This document shows positions 13,388-63,827 of a stretch of 64,000 nucleotides of DNA, one piece after another. This DNA is from Verrucomicrobia bacterium LW23 (lineage in GTDB: Bacteria > Verrucomicrobiota > Verrucomicrobiia > Methylacidiphilales > UBA1321), in assembly GCA_003054695.1 (NCBI GenBank), contig QAZA01000039.1, positions 62,001-126,000 of the forward strand, read 5' to 3'. A model generated the notes under the pieces. The model saw nothing but the letters and a program-made list of their open reading frames with translations, was not told the DNA's origin and did no database searches. The first letter of the stretch is position 1. Each line of letters begins with the position of its first letter. The translations under genes were made by a program, and so were the position numbers.

Positions 13388-13470
13388 GGGTGGGAAGACA
13401 GGTTGCCTGCGCACAAGTAGTCGCAGGGAATCTGGAATCCAAAGCGCCACAGGCGCCACATCGACCAGGC

Positions 13471-13530: not shown

Positions 13531-13647
13531 CCCTTTGTGTCTTGGTGTCTTCGTGGTTAATCCCTCCCCGATTCCCGAATCCGCAACGCGGCGCCAGGAG
13601 GACGAGGAGGAGATTTTAAACCACAAAGACACGAAGACTCAAAGGGA
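13531..13647. repeat. Inside-out pair of TTAACCAC-type repeat arms
   Basis: Two arms of about 30 bp face away from each other. The left (13531-13560) ends ...CTTCGTGGTTAA and the right (13614-13647) begins TTTTAAACCACAAAGAC. They are about 53 bp apart and built of iterated GACAC(G/A)AAG-type units. The orientation is opposite to the nested palindromes at 32.2 and 45.2 kb, where the TTAACC ends are outermost. It lies between two convergent genes. Confidence 0.7.
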
Positions 13648-32212: not shown

Positions 32213-32229
32213 GACTGAAGGGAGGGGAG

Positions 32230-32523
32230 TATTTAACCACGAAGCACACGAAGTACACGAAATGTACGGAGGGGACGAAAGGGAGGATTGGGCAGGGTAA
32301 ATGAATGGATTGGACTTTCTGCTCTATCCCCACTTAGCGGCTTTGTCCCCCTTCGTGCGAAAACATCCCCGTCTGCTCATCACGGAGGGGGGGGAAATTT
32401 CGCACGAAGGGGGACAAAGCCGCTAAGTGGGGATAATGGGGTAGCGGAATAAACCTGTCCGATCCTCCCCCTTTTCGTCGCCTCCGTAAATTTGGTGTGC
32501 TTCGTGTGCTTCGTGGTCAAATA
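32230..32523. repeat. Nested palindromic repeat element, copy 1
   Basis: This 294-bp element has outer inverted arms of about 57 bp. The left begins TATTTAACCACGAAGCACAC and the right ends with its near-complement TTCGTGGTCAAATA. Each arm holds three iterated CACGAAG-type units and a CGGAGG(G/C)GACGAAA block, and the two differ at only a few positions. Inside lies a second, independent palindrome (32325-32435). There is no open frame. The architecture repeats at 45197-45511. It occupies the suhB-gltX intergenic space. Confidence 0.85.
32325..32435. repeat. Inner 38-bp perfect palindrome of copy 1
   Basis: The arm 32325-32362, starting TATCCCCACTTAGCGGC, pairs without mismatch with 32398-32435 around a 35-nt centre. 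It would form a very stable cruciform or RNA hairpin. A related stem stands alone at 42061-42179, which indicates that this module can occur without the outer arms. Confidence 0.85.
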
Positions 32524-32616
32524 CTCCCCCTCTGTCCCGCTTTCAATGGCCCGCGGCCACAGAGGACGCTTTCCGCTTCCCCTTTGGTCCGGCGTCGTGT
32601 AGAATGCTCCCTTCCT

Positions 32617-41574: not shown

Positions 41575-42287
41575 TAGGGAGCGGAGCAACCCTGCCCGGC
41601 AAGATGCCAGGCCCGCAATGGGGAGCCAGCGCGGCGCTATCGACGGACTTCCCCATCCGGAGGACTGATGTCTGGAGGTTGGCGCGCGGGCGGGCGAGGG
41701 CTCGGCCGCTGCGGCGTGCGTCCAGATTCAATCGTGGGACCAGGCCGCGCCGGCCTTGATTTGCAGGCGGGAAGCGATGCCGGTCCGGTCAGGAAAGAGC
41801 GTCTCCGCACGGCATGGGCGCCGAACGGGGATGGTGCCTTGATGGCGGGTTGCGCCGAAGAAAGGGGGCGATACTCAGCGCAAACGGATTGATAATGGCA
41901 ACAGAACGCAAAAGAATCAAGCGGTTCATCCGGACCGGGGCGGACCGGAAGCCGGCGTTTGTCTCTAAAACAGGGCGGGATTTTTGGGGTGAAAAATTTT
42001 AATGAACCGAGTGAAACATCGCGCAGGACAATCCAAATTGTGGGGCACAATCAGGGCGATTTTTCCTCCCCCTTGGCGGCTTCTTTCCCCCTTGGCGTGA
42101 TAAAATCTGTAATCCGCATTTCGGAGGGCAGATTTTATCACGCCAAGGGGGAAAGAAGCCGCCAAGGGGGAGGGGAAAAGCTGACAAACGGGGCAAGGTG
42201 ACGTATAGTTTGGCGAGTATTCAGTAGCCTGATCGCCGGTCGATGTTGTCCGGCGATGCGCGTTTTCCATGTCAGCAACCGTGTGCG
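41575..42287. other. Intergenic region with a long palindrome
   Basis: These 713 bp lie between the divergent ABC exporter and DUF4230 genes. A short basic frame (MATERKRIKRFIRTG..., about 35 codons from 41894) looks like chance. The AT-richer part around 41970-42000 may hold promoters. The main feature is the palindrome at 42061-42179. Confidence 0.5.
42061..42179. repeat. Solitary long palindrome (about 49-bp arms)
   Basis: The left arm 42061-42109 (starting TTTTCCTCCCCCTTGGCGGC) pairs with 42129-42179; the only difference is a 2-bp insertion in the right arm. The 19-nt centre is unpaired. Its stem shares the order GGCGGCTT...CCCCCTT with the inner stems at 32.3 and 45.3 kb, so it is the same module without the outer TTAACCAC arms. 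Confidence 0.85.
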
Positions 42288-43129: not shown

Positions 43130-43593
43130 GAACCTCGAAGAGGTTCTATAACCTAGTGTTTCGGCAAGGATCTATTTTAGGATTAGGGCGGTTCAAGAAG
43201 AGATGTTCGCAAGGCTCTGACAACCTCTTCGAGGTTGTATAACCTAGCCTTGGGTGAAGGCGCGAAATCGAACGACCCCAACGCGGGTCGCATCCCTTTT
43301 CGACGCCGAGGGATACAACCCGCATTGGGGTTGATCTGAAACTGCCGCTTACCCAGGGTTCTCTCGCTTCGCTCGGGGAACCCTGGGCTAGGTTATAGAA
43401 CCTCTTCGAGGTTCTCGGACATTCCCCGTCCATGCACGTCTAATCCTAAAATAGATCATTGCCGATGCACTAGCCCAGGGTTCCCTCTCTTCGTTTGGGG
43501 AACCCTGGGCTATATTATACAACCTCTTCGAGGTTATCGGATCGGATTGCGCAAACCCGAGCCTGAACGGCTTTACAAAACTTCTTCGAGGTA
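43130..43593. repeat. Cluster of AACCTC-TTC-GAGGTT palindromes and companion hairpins
   Basis: Four intact copies of the palindrome AACCTC-NNN-GAGGTT lie at 43130-43146, 43221-43237, 43398-43414 and 43521-43535, with a degenerate fifth at 43579-43593. Most are flanked by TATA(A)CC or GGTTATA. Two copies are each preceded by a CCCAGGGTT/AACCCTGGG hairpin (43352-43387 and 43474-43509). A 17-bp sequence ATCTATTTTAGGATTAG (43170-43186) returns inverted at 43440-43456. There is no gene in these 535 bp. It looks like a REP/BIME-type array. Confidence 0.85.
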
Positions 43594-45196: not shown

Positions 45197-45511
45197 TTAT
45201 TAACCACGAAGCACACGAAGTACACGAAATTTACGGAGGGGACGAAAGGGGGAGGTTGGGTATGGGGGGTATTCTACTTTCCCCATCCGCTTTCCCTATT
45301 ATCCCCACTTAGCGGCTTCGTCCCCCTTCGCGCGAAACTATCCCCATCTGCTCTGCCTCGGTTCGGAGGGGGGAATATTTCACGCTAAGGGGGACAAAGC
45401 CGCTAAGTGGGGATAGTGGGGAATGCTGACTAAATACCCCCATACCTCCGACCTCCCCCTTTCGTCCCCTCCGTAAATTTCGTGTATTTCGTGTGCTTCG
45501 TGGTTAAATAA
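45197..45511. repeat. Nested palindromic repeat element, copy 2
   Basis: This 315-bp element has the same build as the one at 32230-32523. Outer arms of about 60 bp start TTATTAACCACGAAGCACAC on the left and end TGCTTCGTGGTTAAATAA on the right, with three iterated CACGAAG-type units each. The inner stem begins ATCCCCACTTAGCGGCTT at 45301 and returns as its complement ending GCTAAGTGGGGATA at 45415. The inner centre has diverged from copy 1, but the arms agree closely. There is no open frame. Confidence 0.85.
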
Positions 45512-53660: not shown

Positions 53661-53744
53661 GGGGAGGGGGCAGAGGGGGAGTGTTTAACCACGGACCACA
53701 CGGAACACACGGACGGAAGCGGAGAGGAGGCAGGTTTTCCCGTC

Positions 53745-54125
53745 TCAGCGGACGATTCGTTTGATGTCGACTCCTGGGTAGGCGCAAAAATTAACCAGCA
53801 GGCCCAGTTTCATCCTGCTCAGGTTAAGGTAATCCAGCACTTGGGCTGTATGTTCAGGTACAAGCTGCTGCACCGCCTTAATCTCAATAATGAGCTTGTC
53901 ATAGCAGATAAAATCGCAGCGGAATGTCTGCTTGAGAAGTATTCCTTTGTAAGTAAAGCCAAGCTCTTGTTGAACCACAAAAGGCACCCCGGCAAGGGCG
54001 AGTTCCCGCTCCAGGCATTCCTGGTAGACAGACTCCAGGAAGCCGATTCCAACCGTATGATAAACCTCGAGTATGGCACCGCGAATCTTGTAGCTTTCGC
54101 TCGCATAAAGGAGATTGCTTTGCAT
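53745..54125 (-). CDS. GxxExxY protein (PD-(D/E)XK-like nuclease fold)
   Basis: This 126-residue protein carries the name-giving motif VGIGFLESVYQECLERELAL near residue 26 and then the strand pair LLKQTFRCDFICYDKLIIEIKAV. The Asp in RCDF and the E-x-K in IIEIKAV are spaced like the catalytic residues of PD-(D/E)XK nucleases. It ends with helical YLNLSRMKLGLLVNFCAYPG and a short basic tail. The family's function is not established. The gene is flanked on both sides by TTTAACCACGGA repeat arms. Its coding sequence is less GC-rich than its neighbours, which fits recent acquisition. The start is the ATG at 54123-54125. Confidence 0.9.
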   Translation of the reverse strand: MQSNLLYASESYKIRGAILEVYHTVGIGFLESVYQECLERELALAGVPFVVQQELGFTYKGILLKQTFRCDFICYDKLIIEIKAVQQLVPEHTAQVLDYLNLSRMKLGLLVNFCAYPGVDIKRIVR

Positions 54126-54177
54126 GCCAATTCATAGCCTGAGTATTCATAGGAATCCAGTCTGATTGTGCGGGGAA

Positions 54178-54294
54178 TTTTAACCACGGAGCACACGGAA
54201 CACACGGAACGGGGGCACGGAAGTCAGCGGGAACCACCCCTCTGTTTCCCCTCCTGTCCCCTGTCCGTGTGTTCCGTTTGCTCCGTGGTTAAAA
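54178..54294. repeat. Simple palindrome of TTTTAACCACGGAG arms
   Basis: The 31-bp left arm (54178-54208) and right arm (54264-54294) are complementary with a single mismatch around a 55-bp GC-rich centre. It lacks the inner stem of the 32 and 45 kb elements. It marks the right end of the GxxExxY unit and precedes the 1110-residue TPR gene. The remaining 250 bp up to that gene show no other feature. Confidence 0.85.
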
Positions 54295-54548
54295 TTCCCC
54301 TGCTCCCTCAAAGGCGGCGGAACTCGAATCTCGGACCGATTGGTTTCCGCTAGATTTTCCTCTCCTCCCTCCGGGTGTTCCGTGGACCCGCATGGTGTGG
54401 GGTGGTGGTCGTCCCATGCAGTAATCGCAGTGCGATGCAACTTTTGCGTTGAGATTCTGTCTCTGAGGGGATACGGTAAAAGATCTCTGGTTTGGCTCGG
54501 GTGCTGGCCAGTTCGCTTCTTTTTTTCCGCTTTCCTTGCCTGCTTCTC

Positions 54549-63408: not shown

Positions 63409-63827
63409 CGGGATTCAAGCACGGCTGCAGAGGCTTTCGATTGATAGCCATTAGACTCGTTAATGAGCGGGAACGTAGACAAGGGCGTATCGTCGATTGA
63501 TATTCCCGTATATCGTAACCTTCGTTCCCCCCTTTATCCCTCGTCCTTTGTGTCTTTGTGCCTTGGTGGTGAATCCCCTCTTCCCGCCCAGAGCAATTCT
63601 GCGGGGAGAAAGCATCACTGGCGTTGTGTGACCACTACGGAATTGCTCGTGCTGTGCAATTTTCCACTCAACCACGTGTAAAGTCGTTGCGCGGCGTTCA
63701 TTTAGGCGAGGCGTGCAAATGGTTGCTTTGCGTTGCTATTCTATCTTGTTAGGCAGACACTTTCCCGAGCCCATCTGGGCCTTCGCACCATCCGTATGCC
63801 CTCTACCTGGCATCGCCTGCGTAAACC
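63409..63827. other. Intergenic region with a repeat arm
   Basis: In these 419 bp between the convergent DUF4388 gene and purK no credible gene is visible. A solitary arm of the TTAACCAC family lies at 63545-63573 (CCTTTGTGTCTTTGTGCC followed by TTGGTGGTGAA), closest to the arms at 13.5 kb. The rest is AT-richer and featureless. Confidence 0.5.
63545..63573. repeat. Solitary repeat arm, GTGTCTT type
   Basis: CCTTTGTGTCTTTGTGCCTT continues into GGTGGTGAA and matches the left arm at 13531-13560 in iteron order (TTTGTGTC, then a TTG/TTC unit, then GTGGT-AA). There is no partner arm within the window's right edge. It is a degenerate single end of the family. Confidence 0.6.

Follow-up and report, generated by a model that had tools for sequence, protein, structure and literature searches.

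GxxExxY genes framed by inverted tandem-repeat arms: probable REPIN-RAYT-like units with a predicted Cas4-type nuclease

Introduction

In REPIN-RAYT systems a nuclease gene is flanked by inverted palindromic repeats and accompanied by many gene-less hairpins, the genes are distinct and single-copy, and the repeat type is matched to the lineage (PMC3116915). In TIRtrons a single gene lies between long terminal inverted repeats, which also occur as dispersed families (PMC3733652). Here we describe a unit from Verrucomicrobia bacterium LW23, located in a window of 64,000 nucleotides (contig QAZA01000039.1, positions 62,001 to 126,000), in which a GxxExxY gene is enclosed by inverted arms. It resembles REPIN-RAYT in that inverted repeats lie on both sides of GxxExxY genes and are also dispersed without them, and in that these genes are distinct and not multiplying, paralogs within one genome being diverged and carrying different arms. 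It differs in its predicted PD-(D/E)XK enzyme, RAYT being of the HUH/Y1 type, in its arms, which are tandem 8-10-mers that do not end in the RAYT-type GTAG (or CGTC) tag, and in the position of the gene inside the palindrome. As the enzyme is unrelated, the GxxExxY unit cannot be filed under REPIN-RAYT. With TIRtrons it shares one gene framed by terminal inverted repeats that form dispersed families, but the enzyme is again unrelated, the TIR motif GGGGWSAS is not a common feature of the arms and the unit has no TIRYT (Y1) gene of the kind located between TIRs. Terminal inverted repeats also connect the GxxExxY units to classical IS elements.

Results and Discussion

The unit in LW23 spans positions 53684-54300 of the window and has the following features:

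53684..53714, plus strand: left arm of tandem 9-nt units TTTAACCACGGACCACACGGAACACACGGAC, inverted partner of 54263-54293 (94% over 31 nt)
53745..54125, minus strand: GxxExxY gene, 126 aa, predicted Cas4/RecB-type PD-(D/E)XK nuclease (profile matches, AlphaFold2, best PDB fold 4ic1/SSO0001)
54172..54300, no strand: complete palindrome with 46-nt arms and a 37-nt loop, with which the unit ends on the right
54182..54208, plus strand: middle arm, repeating the left arm in direct orientation and serving as inner arm to the right palindrome (arm pattern matched with 0 mismatches)
54263..54293, minus strand: right outer arm, inverted partner of the left arm

The original prediction, made from the letters of the window, described a single GxxExxY gene with a D...ExK signature between inverted arms with about two mismatches, and named no established function for this protein family. 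The gene and its arms were confirmed. The outer arms are of the TTTAACCACGGA type and 94% complementary over 31 nt with 2 mismatches, the left one matching the arm pattern without mismatch at 53687-53713. The gene matches TIGR04256 (E 2.9e-39, 134 bits at a cut-off of 35, covering positions 2-116 of 116) and PF13366 PDDEXK_3 (E 6.2e-38) and is the sole gene of the unit, in which a search for Y1 gave no match. The third arm at 54182-54208 had gone unnoticed: on the right the unit closes with a complete palindrome of its own, whose far arm is the right outer arm.

In the family alignment D71 is invariant and E81 and K83 are nearly so. Together with E31, Q95 and Y99 (conserved as E31, D71, E81xK83 and Q95xxxY99) they fit a RecB/Cas4-type active site with a QxxxY motif. 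The AlphaFold2 model of the LW23 protein (pLDDT 92) has its best solved structural match in SSO0001 (4ic1; Foldseek E 5e-4, Z 10.3), a Cas4 nuclease, followed at lower Z by restriction-enzyme and Hjc-type folds. The model thus predicts a minimal Cas4/RecB-type PD-(D/E)XK nuclease fold, likened to Cas4 by its RecB-type core and its QxxxY motif. Unlike Cas4 and RecB, the predicted nuclease is one minimal domain in which no cysteine that could serve an Fe-S cluster is conserved (no such column among 52 sequences), and at the loci read its genes have no CRISPR or RecBCD neighbours. Judging by orthologs at fixed sites, the protein is under purifying selection (dN/dS about 0.04-0.15, a rough range with dS near saturation). 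A PADLOC search for defence systems gave no match and a sequence search for solved homologs no credible one. The literature found on TIGR04256 and PF13366 gives no function and mentions no arms, and no paper matched the arm strings; subscription papers fell mostly outside this search, so that an earlier notice is possible.

Further arms without the gene occur in the same window, where the period-9 arm has 8 matches with at most 3 mismatches compared to 0 in 100 shuffles:

13531..13646, no strand: gene-less palindrome with period-8 arms (CTTTGTGTCTTGGTGTCTTCGTGG...)
32224..32529, no strand: gene-less element with ACCACGAAG arms and a second palindrome (32325-32435) in its loop
45200..45507, no strand: gene-less element with ACCACGAAG arms and a second palindrome (45292-45423) in its loop
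49109..49135, minus strand: solitary arm of the CACGGAG type
63546..63568, minus strand: solitary period-8 arm (CTTTGTGTCTTTGTGCCTTGGTG)

All five places had been listed in the original prediction as ORF-less elements with arms related to those of the unit. Those at 32.2, 45.2 and 49.1 kb are indeed of the same period-9 type, while the ones at 13.53 and 63.55 kb belong to a related period-8 type. The elements 32224-32529 and 45200-45507 are two copies of one composite element with a palindrome nested in the loop of another; other nestings were seen in the LW23 genome at L034 and L056. The genome as a whole contains 99 strict arms, compared to 0 for a reversed-pattern control, the majority of them not near a GxxExxY gene. 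It has four GxxExxY genes, each adjoining long palindromes. One of them (C11:360618) has lost the ExK motif, thus decayed copies exist.

In order to see how general this arrangement is, we compared the flanks of GxxExxY genes with those of control ORFs, the latter being the output of a mechanical ORF finder. Counting any inverted match scoring at least 12 between the two 250-bp flanks, inverted repeats were found across 142 of 178 GxxExxY genes from many phyla (80%) and 17 of 485 control ORFs (3.5%; Mann-Whitney p 8e-67), the rate falling to 6.0% when flanks were swapped between GxxExxY loci and to 1.4% when they were shifted outward. A stricter test, which accepts only mirrored tandem trios within 400 bp, was positive for 27 of 100 GxxExxY genes and 2 of 355 control ORFs. 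It was replicated on 80 named, independently fetched loci from Verrucomicrobiota, Planctomycetota, Omnitrophota, Acidobacteriota, Chloroflexota, Pseudomonadota, Bacteroidota, Hydrogenedentota and others, with 27 positives compared to 2 among 110 controls (p 6.6e-10), one of these two being a GxxExxY gene itself. The expectation that arms flank GxxExxY genes more often than other genes is therefore strongly borne out. Within the phylum of LW23 about 60% of the sampled genomes have GxxExxY genes, which are also present in many other phyla.

Two candidates for a different cargo were rejected: an RNase D-like control gene (L101) probably lies between two separate elements, and a glycosyltransferase gene (L143) sits in an arm-rich region. 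TIGR02436 four-helix-bundle proteins, considered as another alternative cargo, had 0 matches in the LW23 genome and likewise 0 in the control genomes, so that this result carries no weight against them. A viral search gave no match with the window protein as query and three GxxExxY loci with the family alignment, two of them with arm-like inverted repeats (L405 and L406, on contigs classed as viral). A plasmid record of Bacteroides finegoldii (L262), from a genus open to manipulation, has between radA and the gene of an FAD-dependent protein a GxxExxY gene whose inverted repeats are arm-like.

Across loci an arm is built from three to four tandem units, each measuring 8, 9 or 10 nt and having a core of 6-7 nt (CACGAAG, CACAGAG, CACGGAG, CGCGGAG, CATGAAG, CACGAAA, CACAGAT, CAGGATT and others), and a typical unit measures about 430-500 bp. 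Hairpin counts had suggested unrelated palindrome families for each gene, an impression mostly accounted for by this tandem structure; a plain periodicity score was dropped as its background was too high. Followed on its purine-rich strand, the left arm reads inward in about 90% of the units, independent of the gene strand. As the arms point inward, the palindrome holds the gene in its loop. Among 54 units the outer ends mostly belong to the TT(A/C)ACC-, TTTTAGAC- or TCTCGC-type. At two loci (L229 and L230, in G217 and G349) the GxxExxY frame reads through a period-9 right arm (SVHSVSSVV), with its stop in a TTAA at the outer end of the arm.

The arm type follows the protein lineage. Among 60 units protein identity and arm distance are correlated with a Spearman coefficient of -0.548 (null 0 ± 0.065), and the correlation persists when only pairs between phyla are used (-0.532, null about 0 ± 0.07). 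On the protein tree the arm period changes 7 times compared to a shuffled mean of 17.5, with 0 of 500 shuffles as low. Paralogs in one genome have different arms and their nearest relatives in other genomes the same ones; these paralogs are old, divergent and located at unrelated sites, and they give no sign that the gene-bearing form has multiplied recently. Physical linkage alone accounts for the correlation between arm and protein but not for the conservation of the arms: synonymous sites are saturated even within genera and the arms are still alike between phyla, which argues that the arm sequence is under constraint.

The link also appears in a genome-wide count over 288 genomes of the phylum, with LW23 left out and only the strict period-9 CRCRRAG pattern being counted. 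Such arms are present in 112 of 171 genomes with GxxExxY and in 10 of 117 without (p 6e-24); 59 genomes with the gene have no arm of this one pattern. At least 10 arms were found in 46 of the 171 genomes and in none of the 117, and a permutation within families supports the association (p 2e-4).

Orthologous loci with and without the unit, as the original prediction had proposed to compare, gave clean empty sites at three loci. In genus g59 the unit of G062 lies between two genes which we take, from their translated ends, to be trpE and trpG. In G348, G343, G087, G346 and others these genes directly adjoin each other and are arm-free, in several with overlapping stop and start codons (ATGA), while G342 has lost the middle of the GxxExxY gene and kept both arms and G184 has a decayed gene. 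The unit at locus L108 is present in G033, G020, G025 and G030 with an empty, arm-free site in G039, and that at L190 in G299, G352, G351, G281 and G273 with an empty, arm-free site in G149. From these three comparisons it follows that the whole unit is gained or lost together and that gene-less derivatives can arise in place. Among the L190 orthologs the number of tandem units is 3 or 4 by species and has changed alike on both sides, so the two arms evolve in concert.

Taken together, the unit belongs to a widespread compact family with the order arm, GxxExxY gene, inverted arm, which probably operates in the manner of REPIN-RAYT but with an unrelated nuclease. We propose that the GxxExxY nuclease would recognise arms of its own type, the likely form being a hairpin, a cruciform or single strands exposed during replication, and might nick or trim them. 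Arm-bounded DNA could then be copied or moved and both arms would be kept alike. Gene-less palindromes would exploit a resident nuclease gene, itself passed on mostly vertically, for their own spread, in the way proposed for REPINs and RAYTs. Points against this reading are the lack of a general target-site duplication, the diverged gene-bearing paralogs, the 59 genomes with the gene but no strict period-9 arm and, in LW23, the many arms not near a GxxExxY gene and the copy that has lost ExK. The original prediction suggested that the unit could be the autonomous form of a repeat family, with the GxxExxY protein as cutting or maintenance enzyme, and the gene-less elements non-autonomous derivatives, an interpretation that is partly supported. 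The second part is supported by the arms left without a gene in G342 and by gene-less palindromes sharing the arm type. As to the first part, the gene-bearing paralogs within a genome are old and divergent with different arms, and 'autonomous transposon' is therefore less apt than a REPIN-RAYT-like partnership. More tentatively, and with somewhat more doubt than belief, we suggest a new class of mobile DNA in many phyla, in which a Cas4-like PD-(D/E)XK nuclease of about 125 residues might recognise hairpin arms of tandem 8-10-mers and mobilise its own gene together with large populations of gene-less palindromes, no known transposase or recombinase being involved. The literature found gives no enzyme for dispersed palindromes of the CACAGAG/CACGAAG type, and if they are linked to GxxExxY, a function that can be tested is proposed for both. 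An unrelated nuclease fold would join the REPIN-RAYT way of life, and the natural pairs of arm and protein with different specificities would be useful for biochemistry.

A homing-type selfish nuclease, which cuts unit-free alleles so that the unit is copied in by repair and whose arms protect or mark the occupied site, would explain a single small nuclease gene, its precise presence or absence at orthologous sites and the lack of a general target duplication. It would not predict the numerous gene-less arm elements, however, and the insertion sites at the three empty-site loci have no evident common sequence, the paralogs also being at unrelated sites, which makes homing an unlikely explanation.

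The strong purifying selection at fixed sites, the many dispersed arms per genome and their conservation across phyla despite synonymous saturation within genera would also fit a protein maintained by the host, which binds the dispersed arms for repair, replication or chromosome organisation while the arms spread by other means. We regard this as improbable, since a selfish element fits better with the patchy distribution, the decayed copies (G184, G342), the distinct paralogs with different arms in one genome and the occurrence on viral and plasmid contigs.

Terminal inverted repeats, one gene, empty sites and MITE-like derivatives are likewise what a cut-and-paste transposon would show, with GxxExxY as transposase and duplicated target sites. 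A 13-bp direct repeat (AGAGAAAAAAATG) at the L180 insertion points in this direction, but it is a single case, and neither G342 nor G184 has kept it. A general target-site duplication was not seen, since direct repeats beyond the arms score 4.70, barely above shuffled pairs (4.33 ± 0.15), and there is no DDE-type enzyme, so that we consider such a transposon very unlikely.

Least probable of all is that a Y1 tyrosine transposase (RAYT or TIRYT) mobilises the palindromes with the GxxExxY gene as passenger: RAYT-REPIN and TIRtron share the general layout (PMC3116915, PMC3733652), Y1 genes are present in the LW23 genome and within families the presence of Y1 is likewise correlated with arms, but mirrored arms of the GxxExxY type were found at 0 of 34 Y1 loci, 7 of 16 genomes with GxxExxY and no Y1 have at least 12 arms compared to 0 of 63 genomes with Y1 and no GxxExxY having at least 10, and the arm type tracks the GxxExxY lineage. 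The correlation between Y1 and arms probably reflects that both follow genome size and mobile-element load.

Palindromes of other kinds were also observed in LW23. The window contains a strong palindrome of a different family at 42060-42178 (CCTCCCCCTTGGCGGCTTC...), and the GxxExxY gene at C11:360618 is followed on its 3' side by a CCTTGGCG palindrome of similar type. At 43130-43541 inverted and direct repeats of AACCTCTTCGAGGTT and CCCAGGGTTC are clustered, with a related copy near 13467. Two contigs of the LW23 assembly (C9 and C10) carry identical arms, reversed and at equal spacings, which suggests a stretch duplicated in the assembly.
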